Assembly: GCF_000336775.1 (NCBI RefSeq)
Contig: NZ_AOLJ01000011.1
Span: 416,748-449,956, forward strand
DNA length: 33,209 nt
Origin: Haloferax gibbonsii ATCC 33959
GTDB taxonomy: Archaea > Halobacteriota > Halobacteria > Halobacteriales > Haloferacaceae
Direction of reading: 5' to 3'
Part shown: in pieces, positions 4,336 through 33,209 of the stretch
Numbering within the stretch: position 1 is the stretch's first letter
Layout: every line of letters starts with the position of its first letter
Program-made: the position numbers and the translations under genes
The notes under the pieces: generated by a model
What the model was told of the DNA's origin: nothing
The model's database searches: none
The model's input: only the letters and a program-made list of their open reading frames with translations

Positions 4336-4980
4336 ATGGAGGTCACGACGACCGGCCGGTTCCGGGTCTATCGCAGTCCGCGCGACGGAGACGAACTCCT
4401 CTTGCTCGAACTCCCCGAGGAGCGCGTCGACTGGACCGACCCGGCCGTCGAGACCGACGCCGACGACGCCTACTCACCGACCTACGTGCCACAGACCGGC
4501 TACGACGGCGACCTCGCAGAGCGCGTCTCGGCGCTCGAACCCGGAAACGAAATCGAGGCGACGTTGACGTGGGACGACGGCGACCCGCAGTTTGCGAACG
4601 TGTCGGTCCGCGACCGGACCCGCTTTCGGTTCGTCGGTGCCGCGACGGGGCTGTTCGAGGCCGCCCGCGAGACGTGGCAGGCGACCGGCGACGGCGAGGC
4701 CATCGGCTCGCGCGTCACCTACGGCACCGACGGCGACCCGAACGCCGTGCTCTACGTCTTCGCGAAACAGCCCGGCGCGCGCGACCTGTTCGACGAGTTC
4801 GGCGACGGCGTCGTCCCCGTGGACCCGCTTTTAGACCGCCTCGACGAGGAGGCCGACGTCTCCGACGCGCCCCGCGAGGTGTTCGTCTTGCGCCCCCTCG
4901 ACGAGGAGTTCGTCCTCGTCGCCATCGCGCTCGACCGAGACGGACTGTTCGCGCGGACGATGCGCGACACCTACTGCTGA
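4336..4980 (+). CDS. Conserved haloarchaeal protein of unknown function
   Basis: A 214-residue soluble, acidic protein without signal peptide or membrane segment. It opens with MEVTTTGRFRVYRSP and contains a stretch NAVLYVFAKQPGARDLFDEF near residue 140, then a C-terminal beta-rich part ending RTMRDTYC. I see no catalytic motif. It resembles a family found only in haloarchaea (DUF6663 is my guess). It starts 61 bases after kdgK on the same strand. GTATTTCC at 4308 is a possible TATA element 27 bases before the ATG, so it may be transcribed separately. Confidence 0.8.
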   Translation: MEVTTTGRFRVYRSPRDGDELLLLELPEERVDWTDPAVETDADDAYSPTYVPQTGYDGDLAERVSALEPGNEIEATLTWDDGDPQFANVSVRDRTRFRFVGAATGLFEAARETWQATGDGEAIGSRVTYGTDGDPNAVLYVFAKQPGARDLFDEFGDGVVPVDPLLDRLDEEADVSDAPREVFVLRPLDEEFVLVAIALDRDGLFARTMRDTYC

Positions 4981-5021
4981 CGCGCCGCGGGTCGTCGCCG
5001 GTCACTCCCGAGCGCACTCGG

Positions 5022-5177
5022 TCACTCGGCGTCGCTCGGCGCGCGGGAACCGCACTCAGAACACCGATAGACGGCCCGCCAGCCGCCGCCGGTGACGAAC
5101 CGCCGCCGAAACGAGTGTCTCGCGCCGCACTCGTCGCAGACCGTCGGCGGTCCGTTCGGGTCGGACGGGTCGCGCAT
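5022..5177 (-). CDS. Small zinc-ribbon protein (51 aa)
   Basis: The reading frame encodes 51 residues starting MRDPSDPNGPPTVCDECG. Two CxxC knuckles, CDECG (C14, C17) and CSECG (C39, C42), are separated by 21 residues rich in Arg and aromatic residues, a classic zinc ribbon. The ATTTAG element at 5201-5206 on this strand lies about 27 bases upstream of the ATG, fitting a leaderless transcript. Haloarchaea encode many such single-domain zinc microproteins, most of unknown function. No function can be given here. Confidence 0.82.
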   Translation of the reverse strand: MRDPSDPNGPPTVCDECGARHSFRRRFVTGGGWRAVYRCSECGSRAPSDAE

Positions 5178-5336
5178 ACGCCGAATCGTGGCGGAGAGGA
5201 CTAAATGCCACCGTCGCCAGTCGTCGCCGACGCCGTCGTGTCCGGGCGGCGAGCGGGCGGCGAGCGGGCGGGGTGCGGCCGGCGACGAGTTCGACTGAAC
5301 TGACAGACTCGACAGAAAAGCGGGGACGACGAAGCG

Positions 5337-5834
5337 TTAGTTCTCTTGGGTCCAGCGCTGGTAGACCGCGGAGCCGCCGAGAACGGCGAAGACGAGCGAA
5401 CCGAGACCGGGCGCGCCGACGCCGGAGATGACCGGGACGCCGACAGCAGCGGCGATCATGAGGACGATGCCGAGCGCGGCGAGCGCGGCGTAGTACTCGC
5501 TCCACGAGAGTTCGCCCTCGGGGACGACCTCCATGTAGACCGTCACGTCGCCCGCCTCGGCCAGCGAGACGACCTTCGACTCGTCGTCGTAGTTCACGAT
5601 GTCCAGTTCGGCGAGTTTGGGGATGTGGGTCTGTTGCAGCGAGACGTAGGCGCTCTGGCGGATGTTCCGCGGCGGCGGCGACTCCCCGGTCTCCGCTTCC
5701 GCGATGCGCTCCGAGAGTTCGCGGAGGGTCAGGTCGCCGTCTTGGAGGAACTCGATGGCCATCCGACGGCGGTCGTTACTCAGTACCTCGTGAATTCGCG
5801 TCTCGGAGAGTCCGGGTTCGGATGTTGTCGCCAT
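5337..5834 (-). CDS. Winged-helix protein with C-terminal membrane anchor
   Basis: A 165-residue protein in two parts. Residues about 10-100 read as a winged helix: SETRIHEVLSNDRRRMAIEF is the start seen in many haloarchaeal ArsR-like or DUF7344-type domains, followed by LTLRELSERIAEAE and a beta-wing VNYDDESKVVSL. Residues about 112-160 form two hydrophobic helices, so the domain probably sits on the cytoplasmic face of the membrane. An AT-rich TATA-like element lies about 40 bases upstream (5870-5880), giving a short leader. A regulatory role is inferred from fold only; the target is unknown. Confidence 0.82.
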   Translation of the reverse strand: MATTSEPGLSETRIHEVLSNDRRRMAIEFLQDGDLTLRELSERIAEAETGESPPPRNIRQSAYVSLQQTHIPKLAELDIVNYDDESKVVSLAEAGDVTVYMEVVPEGELSWSEYYAALAALGIVLMIAAAVGVPVISGVGAPGLGSLVFAVLGGSAVYQRWTQEN

Positions 5835-6212
5835 ACGAGGATTCGATCGATTTGTGACTGGTCGCTTCTTCTATATTAACAGTTCGCCTCCGGAATCGCC
5901 GTCCGGAATAACGAGTATCGGCAGAAACCAAGGCCCTTATTCACTCTAACGCCCGAATTGCGGCTCTATTTCGACTGCCAATCGGCCAAAAGATACATTA
6001 ATGACACGTTCTGCGCCCGACGCGACCCGAAACGTAGTGGCCCGGTGACACGAATTCCTCGCACGCATCACCGGGGTTACGATGCGGTCGTCGCCAACGG
6101 CCCCGCGCCTGCGGACTGTCAGGAACCGCTCGGCCCGTTCGCCAGCGAAGGGGCGTCCGGCGGAACGAGCCCGACGAGAAGACTCAACAGGCCGCGGCGA
6201 CGACATCGGGCG
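5835..6212. other. Intergenic region between divergent genes
   Basis: These 378 bases separate the winged-helix gene from the glutaredoxin-like gene. The half next to the winged-helix gene (5865-6010) is AT-rich and holds its promoter and a second TATA-like element near 5990-6000 facing right. I see no convincing ORF. An in-frame extension of the glutaredoxin gene from 5958 is Arg-rich and unlike the rest of that protein. A small RNA from the 5990 element is possible but unsupported. Confidence 0.4.
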
Positions 6213-6473
6213 ATGAGCGACCCCGTCCCCGTCATCATCTACACGCGCACGGAGTGTCACCTCTGCGACGAGGCGGAGGCGACCGTCCGCGAGGTCGCAG
6301 GCGAGACGGACGTCCCGGTCGATATCGAGCTCGTGAACGTCGATACCGACGACGAACTCAGCGAGAAGTACGGGGAGCGAGTGCCGTACGTCTACGTGGA
6401 CGGCCGACCGGCGTTCAAGTTCCGCGTCGACGCCGACCGGCTCAGGGAGAAACTGACCGCGGCCCAGGAGTGA
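6213..6473 (+). CDS. Glutaredoxin-like thioredoxin-fold protein
   Basis: An 86-residue protein of glutaredoxin length. It opens VPVIIYTRTECHLCDEAEAT, with a CHLC redox pair at the N-terminus of the first helix. It then has VNVDTDDELSEKYGERVPYV, which carries the cis-proline (VP) that closes the active site in thioredoxin folds. It probably handles dithiol/disulfide exchange in the cytoplasm; a haloarchaeal partner could be gamma-glutamylcysteine rather than glutathione, which is inference. ATG 6213 gives the standard domain start. The genes on either side do not suggest a specific substrate. Confidence 0.87.
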   Translation: MSDPVPVIIYTRTECHLCDEAEATVREVAGETDVPVDIELVNVDTDDELSEKYGERVPYVYVDGRPAFKFRVDADRLREKLTAAQE

Positions 6474-6479
6474 GCGCCG

Positions 6480-8573
6480 TCACTCGGCGTCGTCGATGTC
6501 GACCCACTCGACGCCGCGGAACTCGAAGCGCGCGCCGCCGTCGGTGCCGTCGGTGAGCGTGACCGACCAGCCGTGGGCCTCGGCGATGTTTTCGACGATA
6601 GCCAACCCGAAGCCCGTCCCGGTTCGGTCGGTCGTGTACCCGTGTTCGAACACCCGCTCGCGGAGCGACTCGGGGATGCCGTCGCCGTCGTCTTCGACGT
6701 AGAAGCCCGCGTCGTCGTCGAGTCGGCCGACGGTCACGGTCGCGGCCGCGGCGCCGTGCTCGACAGCGTCACCAGACGTAGTCTGGTTGCCTGTAGAACC
6801 ATGTTCTACAGCGTTGCGAAACAGGTTCTCGAACAGTTGGAGGAGCCTGCCCGTGTCGGCGCGGACCACGCCGAGGTCGAGCGGTTCGAGACGGGCGTCC
6901 TCGGTGGCGACGAAGCTCCACGCGTGGGTGACCTTCGACCGGAGGTCGACCGCCTCGAACTCCGTGACCGGCGAGCCCTGTCGGGCGAGCGTGAGCAGGT
7001 CGCTGATGAGGGCGTTCATCCGTTCGAGCGCCGTCTCTATCTTTTCGAAGTGCTCCGGGTCGCCGGTGTCGGCCGCGATTTCGAGGTAGCCCTTGGCGAC
7101 CGAAAGCGGGTTTCGGAGGTCGTGTGCGACCACGGAGACGAACTCGTCGAGTCGCTCGTTCGCCGCCGCGAGTTCGGCCTCGCGGTCGCGGAGCGTCTGT
7201 TCGCGCTTCGCCCGCTCGACGGCCGACGAGACGGTGGACGCGAGCAGTTGGAGGAGTTCGACGTCGACGTCGGTGAACGCCCCCTGACGGGTGTCGCCGG
7301 TGAGGAGGACGCCGTACTCGCCGAGCGGGACGTGGACCTCAGACTCGATGGACGAGTCGGGGTGCTGCACCTCCGACCCGCCGACGGTTCGCTCGTACAC
7401 CCGCACCTCGTTGGCGTCGAACGCCTCCCAGATGAGCGTCTCCTCGCCGTCGCGGTGGAGGGTGGGCGACTCGCCGAACACCTGCCGGGCGGCGTCGGAC
7501 TGCGCGACCGGGACGAGCGCGTCGTCGTCGGGGTCGTAGAACCACACGCCCGAGATGGGCCAGCCGACCACGTCGCGGACGGCCTCGACGGCGACGGCCG
7601 CGACCGCCTCGCTCGTCTCGACGCGGAGGAGTTCGCGGGCGACCGACTGCAGGTCGCGAAGCGCCCGTTCGAGGCGCTCGCGCTCGGCGGCGTCTCTCCC
7701 CGGGAGACGCGTCCCCGCGTTCGCTCCGGCTCCGGAGTCGCACCGGTCCGCGACTTCCCCGGCGTCGAGGCCCGCATCGTCGGTACCGGCTCTGTCCGCC
7801 GCGGCTGTGGCATCGGAGGCGACCTCTCGGATGAAGACGCTTACCCCGCTGTCGTCGGGGTAGATTCGCGCCGAGACGCGAACGTCGAAGGCGTCGATTC
7901 GGGTGTCGAGTCGCGTCGTGGCTCCCGACGCCATCGCGGCTTCGAGCGCCCCGTGAATCTCGGAGCCGACCTCGGGGAACAGCTCGCGGAAGTCGCGGTT
8001 GAGTGCCTCCGCGGCCGGAACGCCGGTTCGCTCGGCCATCGCGTCGTTCCAGTAGCTGACGGCCCAGTCGTCGTCTAACGCGAAGATGCCATCGGTGACG
8101 CGGCCGTAGACGGTCGCGAGGTGCGCGTCGGACTCGGTGAGTCGCTCCTGGACGCGGTACTGCGACACCGCGTTGAACACGCGGCTCGCGAGGAGGTGGA
8201 AGTCCTCGTCGCCGGCGGTCCGCCGGACGTAGTCGCTGACGCCGAGCGAAATCGCGCGGCTCGCCACCGCCTCGTCGCCGTGGGCGGTGTAGAGGATGAA
8301 CGGCAGGTCGGACGAGCGGGCGCGAACGGCGGTGAGGAGGTCGAGGCCGTCGCCGTCCCGGAGGTGGTACTCCGAGACGACGCAGTCGACGCCGTCGTCC
8401 TCGACGACGGAGATACCGTCGATGACGGCGGTCTCGCCCCGGACGTCGAGCCGGTCGGACTCGCGTTCGAGCGCCGTCGCGACGAGGGCGACGAACTCCG
8501 GGTCCCGGCCGACGTAGAGGACGGAGATGGGGTCGTCACCGCCGTTCCCGGTGGTGTCGTCGGGGGTGGACAT
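6480..8573 (-). CDS. Sensor histidine kinase, REC-PAS-GAF-HisKA-HATPase
   Basis: A 697-residue soluble signal-transduction protein. Residues about 16-130 form a receiver-like domain, 145-250 a PAS domain (VTDGIFALDDDW, SYWNDAMAERTG), and 305-455 a GAF domain. Residues 475-535 are the HisKA dimer with the phosphorylated H484 in VVAHDLRNPL. The ATPase follows, with the N box (LFENLFRNAVEHG), G1 (DDGDGIP) and G2 (GTGFGLAIV). In the receiver, the position that normally holds the phospho-accepting Asp is E68 (VVSEYHL) and the conserved Lys is Arg (SDYVRR), so it may not be phosphorylated normally. No membrane segment is seen. The input signal and the output regulator are unknown, and no response regulator is adjacent. 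Confidence 0.9.
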   Translation of the reverse strand: MSTPDDTTGNGGDDPISVLYVGRDPEFVALVATALERESDRLDVRGETAVIDGISVVEDDGVDCVVSEYHLRDGDGLDLLTAVRARSSDLPFILYTAHGDEAVASRAISLGVSDYVRRTAGDEDFHLLASRVFNAVSQYRVQERLTESDAHLATVYGRVTDGIFALDDDWAVSYWNDAMAERTGVPAAEALNRDFRELFPEVGSEIHGALEAAMASGATTRLDTRIDAFDVRVSARIYPDDSGVSVFIREVASDATAAADRAGTDDAGLDAGEVADRCDSGAGANAGTRLPGRDAAERERLERALRDLQSVARELLRVETSEAVAAVAVEAVRDVVGWPISGVWFYDPDDDALVPVAQSDAARQVFGESPTLHRDGEETLIWEAFDANEVRVYERTVGGSEVQHPDSSIESEVHVPLGEYGVLLTGDTRQGAFTDVDVELLQLLASTVSSAVERAKREQTLRDREAELAAANERLDEFVSVVAHDLRNPLSVAKGYLEIAADTGDPEHFEKIETALERMNALISDLLTLARQGSPVTEFEAVDLRSKVTHAWSFVATEDARLEPLDLGVVRADTGRLLQLFENLFRNAVEHGSTGNQTTSGDAVEHGAAAATVTVGRLDDDAGFYVEDDGDGIPESLRERVFEHGYTTDRTGTGFGLAIVENIAEAHGWSVTLTDGTDGGARFEFRGVEWVDIDDAE

Positions 8574-21492: not shown

Positions 21493-21565
21493 GTCCTGAT
21501 AGGGTAGTGGACTATCCTCCTGGCTTGCGGAGCCAGGGACCGGAGTTCAAATCTCCGTCAGGACG
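21493..21565 (+). tRNA. tRNA-Arg (GCG)
   Basis: A complete cloverleaf: acceptor GTCCTGA/TCAGGAC, anticodon stem CTGGC/GCCAG with loop TTGCGGA (anticodon GCG), T arm GGAG-TTCAAAT-CTCC, and discriminator G. The TATA-like CTTAAGT at 21454-21460 is the likely promoter. The last 23 bases recur exactly 140 bases downstream, and a degenerate third copy follows. Confidence 0.95.
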
Positions 21566-21587
21566 CTTTCCTTTAGAACACTATTCT

Positions 21588-21611
21588 CCGAGAGCCCTCT
21601 GTGGCTCTCGG
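21588..21611 (+). terminator. Hairpin after tRNA-Arg
   Basis: CCGAGAGCC and GGCTCTCGG form a perfect 9-bp stem with a 6-base loop, starting 23 bases after the tRNA. A weaker version of the same hairpin recurs after the second tRNA-end copy (about 21727-21750). It may be a terminator or processing signal, or part of the duplicated unit. Confidence 0.45.
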
Positions 21612-21636
21612 TCTGTCTGCGGTGAGCGGCCACCGA

Positions 21637-21705
21637 GGAGATTTGAACAGGGAGCGTAGCGAACGCAGTGAGCGAAGTGAGTGAGTTCAAATCTCCGTCA
21701 GGACG
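21637..21705 (+). repeat. tRNA-Arg 3'-end copy closed by an inverted T-arm sequence
   Basis: Bases 21683-21705 repeat exactly the tRNA-Arg bases 21543-21565 (T arm, 3' acceptor strand and discriminator). Upstream, GGAGATTTGAAC (21637-21648) is the perfect reverse complement of GTTCAAATCTCC (21685-21696). The copy therefore closes a 12-bp stem around a 36-base loop rich in GAGCG/GTGAGCGAAG-like motifs. The 5' half of a tRNA is absent, so this is not a functional tRNA gene. Confidence 0.85.
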
Positions 21706-21770
21706 TTTCTCTCTGGAACTGACCTCCGAGAGCCTTCTGTTCTCCCGGGTCGGTCTACAGTCTCCGTACG

Positions 21771-21823
21771 GAATCTGAACGGCGAGCGATATCGCCGCGA
21801 GCGAGTTCAGCGCGCGTCAGGAC
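21771..21823 (+). repeat. Degenerate further copy of the tRNA-Arg repeat unit
   Basis: AATCTGAAC (21772-21780), a GCGAGC-rich middle, GTTCAG (21805-21810) and CGTCAGGAC (21815-21823) follow the same order as the unit at 21637-21705, with CTGAAC/GTTCAG still complementary. Its end overlaps the last codons and stop of the SGNH esterase gene on the other strand. Confidence 0.5.
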
Positions 21824-22500
21824 TCGGCGTGGGCGGCCAGTCCGAGGTCCAGTTCTTCGACCCCGTCGAGCACTAGGTCGGCCATGCGGCGCGCTCCGTG
21901 CTCGCTGAAGTGCGTGTCGTCGGCGATTCCATCGGGGTAGTTCGGATGTTCGCCCGGCTCCAGATGGTTGTAGAGCGCCGTCGAGTCCGCGGGACCGAGT
22001 TCCTCCAAGAGCGACCGCGTTCGCTCGTCCATGTCGATAAACGGCACGTCGCGGTCGCGCGCGACGGCTCTCGTCAGGTCGGCGTACTCGCGGTGGGTGT
22101 CCTTCGGGACGCCGTCGTCGTCGAAGTGACGACGCGCGATGGAGGTGAGCAACACGGGCGTCGCCCCCTGCTCGCGCGTCTCGCCGACGAACGTCCGGAG
22201 GTTGTCGACGAACGCCTCCTCGGTCGTGTGCTGTTCCTTCGAGGGCACCTCGTCGTTGTGGCCGAACTGGACGAACACGTAGTCGGTCTCGGTCAACTGC
22301 CGGACGACGGGACGCCAGCGGCCCTCCTCCAGAAACGTGCGGGTGCTCCGGCCGTTTCGGGCGTGATTCGCCACCGCGACGGCGTCGTCGAAGCGGTCGG
22401 CGAAGGGCATTCCCCAGCCGGTTTCGGGACGCTCGTTGGCATCCTTATCGGCCATGGTGGAGTCCCCGACGAGATGGACGGTAATCGACTCGGACGACAT
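21817..22500 (-). CDS. SGNH/GDSL hydrolase, rhamnogalacturonan acetylesterase-like
   Basis: A 227-residue esterase of the SGNH fold. Block I is VHLVGDSTMADK with the nucleophile Ser14, block II has ARNGRST, block III is FVQFGHNDEVPSK, and block V is DDTHFSEHGA with the catalytic Asp and His. The GDSTM start and FGHND are characteristic of rhamnogalacturonan acetylesterases and pectin-related acetylesterases, which remove acetyl groups from plant polysaccharide. There is no signal peptide, so it would act on imported oligomers in the cell. The TCTATAGG box near 22523-22533 supports a leaderless start at 22500. Confidence 0.88.
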   Translation of the reverse strand: MSSESITVHLVGDSTMADKDANERPETGWGMPFADRFDDAVAVANHARNGRSTRTFLEEGRWRPVVRQLTETDYVFVQFGHNDEVPSKEQHTTEEAFVDNLRTFVGETREQGATPVLLTSIARRHFDDDGVPKDTHREYADLTRAVARDRDVPFIDMDERTRSLLEELGPADSTALYNHLEPGEHPNYPDGIADDTHFSEHGARRMADLVLDGVEELDLGLAAHAES

Positions 22501-31008: not shown

Positions 31009-31082
31009 GGGCTCGTGGTCTAGTTGGTTATGACGCGGCCTTTACAAGGCTGAGGTCGGTGGTTCGAATCCGCCCGAGCCCA
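31009..31082 (+). tRNA. tRNA-Val (UAC)
   Basis: A complete cloverleaf: acceptor GGGCTCG/CGAGCCC, anticodon stem CGGCC/GGCTG with one G-T pair and loop TTTACAA (anticodon TAC), T arm with GGTTCGAAT, and discriminator A. GTTATGAG at 30976-30983 is the likely TATA element. The last 24 bases recur exactly 117 bases downstream. Confidence 0.93.
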
Positions 31083-31083
31083 T

Positions 31084-31122
31084 CAGATTTTGTGACGAAC
31101 CGAACGGTGAGTCACAAATCTG
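31084..31122 (+). terminator. Strong hairpin after tRNA-Val
   Basis: CAGATTTTGTGAC (31084-31096) pairs with GTCACAAATCTG (31111-31122) with a single bulged T, and the loop contains a further ACCG/CGGT pair. It begins 2 bases after the tRNA. A terminator or 3'-processing structure is plausible, although no T tract follows it closely. Confidence 0.5.
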
Positions 31123-31130
31123 TTCCGTGA

Positions 31131-31199
31131 GGGCGGGAGAACCTTGCGGCAACCGAGCGTAGCGAGGTTGACGGAGTGGTTCGAATCCGCCCGAGCCCA
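31131..31199 (+). repeat. tRNA-Val 3'-end copy with inverted T-arm-like partner
   Basis: Bases 31176-31199 repeat exactly tRNA-Val bases 31059-31082. Upstream, GGGCGGGAGAACC (31131-31143) is an imperfect reverse complement of the copied T arm (31178-31192). The loop between them contains CAACC-GAGCGTAGCGA-GGTTG, itself a small hairpin. Same order as the tRNA-Arg unit. Not a tRNA gene. Confidence 0.8.
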
Positions 31200-31204
31200 C
31201 TTCT

Positions 31205-31269
31205 GACGACACGCCACGACGAGCTAGCGAACGGCAGAGCCGTGAGCATAGCGAGGAGTCTGTGTCGTC
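31205..31269 (+). repeat. Further stem-loop of the same style after the tRNA-Val copy
   Basis: GACGACAC (31205-31212) and GTGTCGTC (31262-31269) are perfect complements flanking a loop with GAGCTAGCGAACG and GTGAGCATAGCGAGG. The loop resembles that of the tRNA-Arg repeat unit (21649-21684). This one carries no tRNA 3' end. Confidence 0.55.
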
Positions 31270-31278
31270 TGAGCCGAC

Positions 31279-32765: not shown

Positions 32766-32839
32766 GCCGCCTTAGCTCAGACTGGGAGAGCACTCGACTG
32801 AAGATCGAGCTGTCCCCGGTTCAAATCCGGGAGGCGGCA
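32766..32839 (+). tRNA. tRNA-Phe (GAA)
   Basis: A complete cloverleaf: acceptor GCCGCCT/AGGCGGC, anticodon stem CTCGA/TCGAG with loop CTGAAGA (anticodon GAA), T arm with GGTTCAAAT, and discriminator A. A T-rich TATA-like TCTTTTTGAT lies at 32731-32740. The last 22 bases recur exactly 127 bases downstream. Confidence 0.95.
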
Positions 32840-32902
32840 TTTTCCTGCGAACTACCGAAGGAGCGTCGCGACTGAGTCGTGAGCAGTGAAAATGCGACCC
32901 GA

Positions 32903-32966
32903 CCGGATTCTGAATCAGCGAGCAAATCTCCGATTTGCGAGCGAGGTTCAAATCCGGGAGGCGGCA
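32903..32966 (+). repeat. tRNA-Phe 3'-end copy with inverted T-arm-like partner
   Basis: Bases 32945-32966 repeat exactly tRNA-Phe bases 32818-32839. Upstream, CCGGATTCTGAA (32903-32914) is a near reverse complement of the copied T arm (GGTTCAAATCCGG, 32945-32957). Between them sits a perfect inner hairpin GCAAATC/GATTTGC (32922-32928/32932-32938) flanked by GCGAGC sequences. Same layout as at tRNA-Arg and tRNA-Val. Confidence 0.8.
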
Positions 32967-33103: not shown

Positions 33104-33209
33104 ATGGCGAAAGGTAAGGTCGACTTCTTCAACGACACTGGCGGCTACGGTTTCATCTCTACTGACGACGCGGACGACGACGTGTTCTTCCACATGGAAG
33201 ATGTTGGCG
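33104..33209 (+). CDS. cspA: Cold-shock domain protein, N-terminal part
   Basis: The first 35 residues of a CspA-family protein, cut by the window end. MAKGKVDFFNDTGGYGFIST covers the first strands with the aromatic RNP1 motif (GYGFIS), and DDVFFHMED is RNP2 (VFFH). Such proteins bind single-stranded RNA or DNA as OB folds; haloarchaea carry several short acidic ones. ACTTATCC at 33070-33077 is the likely TATA element, giving a leaderless message from ATG 33104. Confidence 0.93.
   Translation, partial: MAKGKVDFFNDTGGYGFISTDDADDDVFFHMEDVG

Follow-up and report, generated by a model that had tools for sequence, protein, structure and literature searches.

The stretch of DNA analysed here, 33,209 nucleotides in length and called the window, belongs to the 4.06-Mb genome of a haloarchaeon assembled in 30 contigs (G000), and ARAGORN predicts five tRNA genes in it. 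Three of these, tRNA-Arg(gcg), tRNA-Val(tac) and tRNA-Phe(gaa), are followed by a unit of the order X - HP1 - X' - HP2 - X, in which X is the segment of the tRNA gene from the T-loop to the discriminator base, X' is an inverted X, and HP1 and HP2 are hairpins 1 and 2 (Table 1). We use the term cassette for HP1 - X' - HP2 together with one copy of X. Units measure about 90-130 bp and are devoid of ORFs, these mini-units being too small to accommodate a gene. Behind the tRNA-Phe array the window holds the start of a cold-shock-protein gene (33104-33209), and the DNA between the two tRNA-Phe genes of congeners contains several csp copies.

Table 1. Coordinates of the repeat units and their parts at three tRNA genes of the window
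Feature	Positions	Strand	Remarks
tRNA-Arg(gcg)	21493..21566	+	ARAGORN; X = 21543-21565
Cassette at tRNA-Arg: HP1, X' (21632-21648), HP2	21566..21682	+	absent in congener G188
X copy at tRNA-Arg, 23/23	21683..21705	+	
Second, degenerate unit at tRNA-Arg, end = GCGCGTCAGGAC	21706..21824	+	in G188 this flank directly adjoins the tRNA
tRNA-Val(tac)	31009..31082	+	ARAGORN; X = 31061-31082
Cassette at tRNA-Val: HP1 31083-31122, X' 31123-31143, HP2 31144-31175	31083..31175	+	
X copy at tRNA-Val, 24/24	31176..31199	+	
Extra HP1-type hairpin CTTCTGACGACAC..GTGTCGTCTGA at tRNA-Val, without X' or X	31200..31270	+	second-unit remnant
tRNA-Phe(gaa)	32766..32839	+	ARAGORN; X = 32818-32839 (direct repeat D1)
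HP1 module at tRNA-Phe, type a, TTTTCCTGCGAACTACCGAAGGAGCG...	32840..32892	+	this HP1 type is also seen at tRNA-Phe1 and tRNA-Phe2 of congeners
X' at tRNA-Phe, partial inverted copy of X, TGCGACCCGACCGGATTCTGAATC	32893..32916	+	
HP2 module at tRNA-Phe	32917..32944	+	inner perfect stem 32922-32928/32932-32938; fold z -3.4
X copy at tRNA-Phe, 22/22 match to the tRNA 3' end	32945..32966	+	

An earlier note on this DNA had described, downstream of tRNA-Phe, a copy of the tRNA 3' end (exact over 22 nt), an inverted T-arm-like sequence (32903-32914) and an extra perfect hairpin, and had counted the same layout at three of the five tRNAs, with offsets of 140, 117 and 127, but not at two tRNAs near 15.8 kb. 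All of these features were reproduced: the copy reads GGTTCAAATCCGGGAGGCGGCA, the inverted arm reads CCGGATTCTGAA and has one base more than a perfect inverse, and the inner hairpin is GCAAATC-TCC-GATTTGC (32922-32938). The offsets are 140 at tRNA-Arg, 117 at tRNA-Val and 127 at tRNA-Phe, and behind the two tRNAs near 15.8 kb, Met and Asn, the longest match is 7 nt. The feature is wider than that note described, since the unit begins directly behind the tRNA with an additional hairpin, HP1, which opens with a T-rich stretch. In the tRNA register, the copy is identical to the tRNA gene from the T-loop's 5' edge as far as the discriminator, and sometimes on into the trailer. At tRNA-Val, X plus one HP1 arm and the opposite HP1 arm plus X' form one continuous inverted repeat (pair I1), and the X' of tRNA-Phe is near-perfect in the congener G188 (TGTCGCCTCCCGGATTCTGAACC). 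Single-strand folds of X'-HP2-X are much more stable than those of shuffled sequences at tRNA-Phe (z = -3.4), tRNA-Arg (z = -2.9) and tRNA-Val (z = -4.0).

The genome-wide scan for 3'-end copies and inverted partners proposed in the earlier note was run on the tRNA neighbourhoods of G000, comprising 44 tRNA loci (the last tRNA of each tandem cluster), by searching 300 bp downstream with each tRNA's own last 30 nt. Exact copies of the own 3' end of at least 13 nt were found at 26 of the 44 loci and of at least 18 nt at 19. In the controls, none of 34 upstream regions without a nearby tRNA reached 10 nt (maximum 9 nt), one of 4400 dinucleotide shuffles gave a match of at least 12 nt, and none of 1798 comparisons with foreign tRNA 3' ends gave one of at least 18 nt. 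Nearly all of the 26 copies start at the T-loop edge and end at the discriminator. About 20-23 loci display the full layout; Met(cat), Arg(tct) and Thr(cgt), which are among the 26, have no inverted arm or lie next to assembly Ns. Plain tandem tRNA duplication was rejected as an explanation, tandem tRNAs having been recognised and excluded. At tRNA-Met (C11:222094), Tyr (C11:379172), Thr (C19:104836) and Arg (C11:739291) of G000 we observed tandem copies with N just behind the first; these N-separated copies may be duplications made by the assembly at contig joins.

The inverted partner is specific for its own tRNA: the inverted arms scored 482 against their own tRNAs compared to 398 +/- 11.4 upon reassignment, and none of 20000 permutations did as well. 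An earlier test of arm specificity with a 17-mer across the whole T-arm had given a weak signal, because X' lacks the 5' strand of the T-stem, and the arm was redefined afterwards. X' matches X well in the T-loop and T-stem, poorly in the middle of the acceptor and to some extent at the last bases; in the position profile, own-specific match occurs at positions 5, 7 and 10-12 (T-loop and T-stem) and 20-21 (last bases), and none at positions 13-17. A test restricted to the acceptor part of X' was significant in two other genomes, G007 (a distant family) and the congener G266, and not in G000; together with the position profile, this led us to discard a general inverted copy of the entire acceptor stem. 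Chance or likeness to a tRNA consensus is ruled out by the shuffles, the upstream and other-tRNA controls and the permuted assignments, and the non-random layout with its inverted partner held in G000, in the congener, in the distant family and across the class.

Across Halobacteria, the pattern GATTTGAA-N20-50-TTCAAATC occurs in 251 of 292 genomes and in 72 of 77 genera, at up to 16 matches per genome, with zero matches to the reversed control pattern; in the same phylum outside Halobacteria, seven of 124 genomes contain a single match, and the three listed ones look unrelated. All seven matches in G000 lie within 700 bp downstream of a tRNA. At least 120 stretches of named genomes contain a more specific subtype of HP2; the titles of nearly all of them are those of Halobacteria (genera such as Natrialba, Natrinema, Halorubrum, Haloarcula and Haloferax), and two stretches are contigs of unassigned euryarchaeote MAGs. 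In 70 of the 77 cases in which the sequence reaches far enough upstream for a test, this subtype has a tRNA on the same strand within 600 bp upstream, representing 22 tRNA kinds, and in 62 of the 77 the local X is identical to that tRNA at 18 or more of 21 positions; at least four of the remaining seven cases lie behind an X-like, tRNA-Trp-type end missed by ARAGORN run without introns, and one, part of an array, is separated from its tRNA by 3.1 kb. Copies, counted with tandem tRNAs included, follow 21 of 42 tRNAs in the single contig of G007 and 23 of 46 in G266 (selected loci). About half of haloarchaeal tRNA genes carry gene-free cassette arrays downstream. Two HP2-like hairpins of G007 (G007:C1:889320 and G007:C1:1221367) have no tRNA in their immediate neighbourhood and may be the ends of longer integrated elements. 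The tRNA-Phe unit had no match in PLSDB, and a plasmid origin of that unit was accordingly dropped; a scan of IMG/VR with the pattern, directed at a viral origin, gave unspecific matches and was left out of account.

Arrays comprise one to five units and differ between related species. Behind tRNA-Val(tac), no two of the 15 congeners compared have the same array; each array has one to three units, and six HP1 types and six HP2 types form 13 observed combinations. Behind the two tRNA-Phe genes, unit types A, B and C are found as A, B+A, C and B+C; in G151, G266 and G189 B separates the tRNA from C, which stands alone in G154 and G243. At tRNA-Arg(gcg), G188 is empty, and the trailer of its tRNA is the sequence that in G000 follows the copy; four other species have a different unit at the point of the G000 unit, and G266 shares cassette P with G000 although its near kin have cassette Q. 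Empty and filled pairs also exist at Leu(gag), His, Ser(tga) and Lys(ctt), and at Leu(gag) the flank after the copy matches the empty trailer at 114 of 118 positions from base 0. In filled loci the tRNA is intact and the original trailer is displaced behind the new X. As judged from these comparisons of empty with filled sites and of arrays with one another, cassettes are gained, lost and swapped fast among related species, and this turnover points to a recombination process anchored on tRNA genes.

Modules recur at different tRNAs within one genome. Among 50 same-genome pairs of units that share a module at different tRNAs, the own tRNA is the better match for X in 100 of 100 comparisons and for X' in 88 of 100. 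Exchange affects HP1 and HP2 separately, and the local X is always present. Nearly one and the same short unit stands behind Arg(ccg), Lys(ttt) and Arg(tct) in G007, its X matching the local tRNA at 21/21, 21/21 and 18/21 positions, and a relic there, the second unit of Leu(tag), has a Leu(gag)-type X' yet a Leu(tag)-type X. All 171 pairs of similar modules are co-oriented, and with no inverted module among them we rejected shufflon-type inversion. Sequence changes in a tRNA can be followed into its unit: in G112 and G210 the T-loop of tRNA-Val reads GACTC instead of GAATC (A59 to C), the change being repeated in the X copies and, inverted, in X' of the neighbouring unit, and tRNA-Phe1 of both genomes has a swapped T-stem pair, C53-G61, with downstream copies that carry G61. 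The shared change implies that the local sequence was rewritten in both orientations or that the change entered the tRNA from the cassette.

Larger inserts use the same X edges. Behind tRNA-Val(tac) of G243 (L137/L147), a 2-kb low-GC insert with two genes lies between X-like ends; the first gene has a weak match to AriA (PADLOC, E 0.0027), and the second, without a Pfam match, has a start resembling PIN-type nucleases (VILDTNYWISF), which makes the insert possible defence cargo. A 2.1-kb low-GC insert at tRNA-Phe1 of G076 (L125:540-2660) contains small ORFs without a Pfam match and ends in ATTCCAAATCCGGGAGGCGGCA without X', indicating that X' is not required for insertion in general. In Haloterrigena salina (L379, reverse strand, 4752-7893), a 3.1-kb insert behind tRNA-Val(cac) carries a P-loop ATPase-like ORF of 486 aa together with the fragments of a broken tyrosine recombinase; at its right end the insert resembles X'-HP2-X, and its X edges are those of the mini-units. 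A recombinase ORF of intact length adjoins such a unit in Natronorubrum halalkaliphilum, and no integrase was seen in the larger inserts of G243, G076 and G189. Integrase-type elements at these X sites support the action of a recombinase, though the mini-units themselves encode nothing.

Our preferred reading, which we hold with a little less than even confidence, is that these are tRNA-anchored, gene-free mobile cassette arrays changed by site-specific recombination at X; the arrays themselves are observed, the enzyme and the mechanism are what we infer. Units would enter and leave by such recombination, the left edge of X would correspond to the T-loop site of class-IB tRNA integrases, and tyrosine recombinases of the host or of its mobile elements would act in trans; X'-HP2-X and HP1 would be minimal element ends, that is attachment arms whose cargo is gone. 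The T-loop edge, growth on the tRNA side, the displaced trailer and the integrase elements at the same sites fit integration by a T-loop tyrosine recombinase. A plain crossover in the T-loop would import the T-stem and acceptor of the donor, so a local X and X' around a shared HP1 require additional correction or exchange. Hairpin-templated (quasi-palindrome) correction could keep X' complementary to X and, after a module has moved, rewrite X' to the local tRNA; alternatively, exchange might occur at the universal T-loop. Against this reading, the mini-units encode no recombinase, none was tied to them as a dedicated integrase, and circles of about 110-140 bp are stiff. It is conceivable, if on balance doubtful, that Halobacteria possess a dedicated recombination system on tRNA genes, in which the segment from T-loop to 3' end would serve as anchor, each insertion would copy the 3' end both ways, and gene-free hairpin cassettes, sometimes with cargo, would be captured, shuffled and lost at dozens of anchors per genome in an integron-like manner, with the tRNA itself as the repeat.

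Transposition-like insertion of HP1-X'-HP2 would account for X as a target-site duplication of about 22 bp whose length is set by tRNA geometry, with X' as a part of the element that may pair with the target. The strictly local X (100/100) although modules are common to different tRNAs, the mixed X' and X of the Leu(tag) relic in G007 and the intact displacement of the older trailer are all in keeping with it; we nonetheless regard it as unlikely, as X' fits the local tRNA in 88 of 100 comparisons despite the shared neighbouring module, HP1 and HP2 are exchanged independently, and neither terminal repeats nor a transposase were found. Dedicated mobility might be dispensable altogether if replication template switching between X and X' built and expanded the units and homologous recombination across species and loci shuffled the modules: two fold-backs would yield X-HP1-X'-HP2-X, the match of X' is best beside the hairpin and declines outward, the X' and X copies of G112 and G210 share the T-loop base change of tRNA-Val, and the presence of cassette P in G266 among near kin with Q suits homologous shuffling. 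That explanation too has little probability in our estimate, given units only at tRNAs (7/7 pattern matches in G000) and always with a T-loop start, their limitation to Halobacteria, the conservation of module families across genera and the complete lack of inverted modules (0/171).

Covariation of X' with the tRNA arm (0/20000) and the stability of the single-strand hairpins would also be expected of a device acting at the RNA level, in which X' would pair with the X copy or the tRNA under selection and affect tRNA processing, termination or tRNA-derived RNAs; the patchy occurrence of the units, which are absent from orthologous tRNAs of congeners, arrays that differ in 15 of 15 species and the absence of a conserved common core render it highly improbable. 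No more credible is the proposal that the units are ordinary scars, attachment-site remnants of larger tRNA-integrated elements that decayed in a process now ended. Integrase-type elements do use these sites, comparable repeats are on record (PMC3119063) and distal units are degenerate, but a uniform size of 90-130 bp, recurring module families, ordered arrays and free combination of HP1 and HP2 with the local X are not the marks of random decay.

The observations amount to a layer of very short modular units without genes, present throughout the class behind about half of the tRNA genes and different in all related species compared. If the cassettes are mobile, as in our preferred reading of recombination at X, they could show how integrase specificity switches between tRNAs through exchange of modules around the universal T-loop, serve as natural markers for strain typing and as a simple assay for haloarchaeal recombinases, and provide a case in which neighbouring DNA records changes of tRNA sequence in both orientations. 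In the annotation of haloarchaeal genomes, a truncated tRNA 3' end is not necessarily the sign of a prophage.

tRNA genes are classic landing sites for archaeal mobile elements, and in 2002 Williams reportedly described class IB as the T-loop sublocation of tRNA integration. The arrays share with tyrosine-recombinase elements at tRNAs (class IB; SNJ2-type haloarchaeal integrases) a direct repeat from T-loop to 3' end that leaves the tRNA restored and intact (26 loci), tandem accretion on the tRNA side and integrase-type elements at the arrays' own sites. Class-IB elements are distinguished by an internal integrase gene, which the mini-units lack and of which the H. salina insert has a broken one, and by a single tRNA target per element, whereas the HP2 subtype occurs at 22 tRNA kinds and 50 module pairs cross tRNAs; also unlike these elements, the arrays consist of geneless units of about 90-130 bp at about half of the tRNAs, with a tRNA-specific inverted copy. 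Integration into archaeal tRNA genes has been reviewed, including integrase families confined to Halobacteria (PMC8371274), and 22 nt of tRNA-Ala are reported to be duplicated at the end of a prophage, and the 3' end of tRNA-His to be repeated over 43 nt at the end of an island (PMC3119063). The open-access literature yielded tRNA-integrated proviruses and archaeal integrons and no description of arrays of this kind; we file the arrays among tRNA-anchored integrative elements, as a variant for which we found no description, though they may be a system of their own.

Integrons and CALINs resemble the arrays in being ordered and hypervariable, in adding the new unit beside the anchor and in mostly having no adjoining integrase, and X'-HP2-X, like integron attC sites, is a single-strand-foldable palindrome (z -2.9 to -4.0) with imperfect inverted half-sites and a variable loop. 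Unlike integrons, the arrays are anchored on tRNA genes with many anchors per genome, their repeat is the tRNA's own 21-22 nt, and their units are geneless. Searching NCBIfam with five recombinases of G000 gave at most 64 bits for the IntI model TIGR02249 (cut-off 265), the best model being archaeal XerA, below its cut-off; the account of archaeal integrons mentions neither Halobacteria nor tRNA (PMC9668308). With BIME/REP mosaics, which are RAYT-associated, the arrays have in common the alternation of direct and inverted repeats with palindromic mosaic spacers (X-HP1-X'-HP2-X), but the arrays repeat the sequence of the local tRNA in place of a fixed REP, and they are confined to tRNAs. Haloarchaeal MITEs and PATEs are likewise short, gene-free and rich in hairpins; whereas these are defined by constant terminal repeats and dispersed targets, the arrays have no fixed terminal repeats and occur at tRNA 3' ends only, and their X and X' follow the host tRNA.
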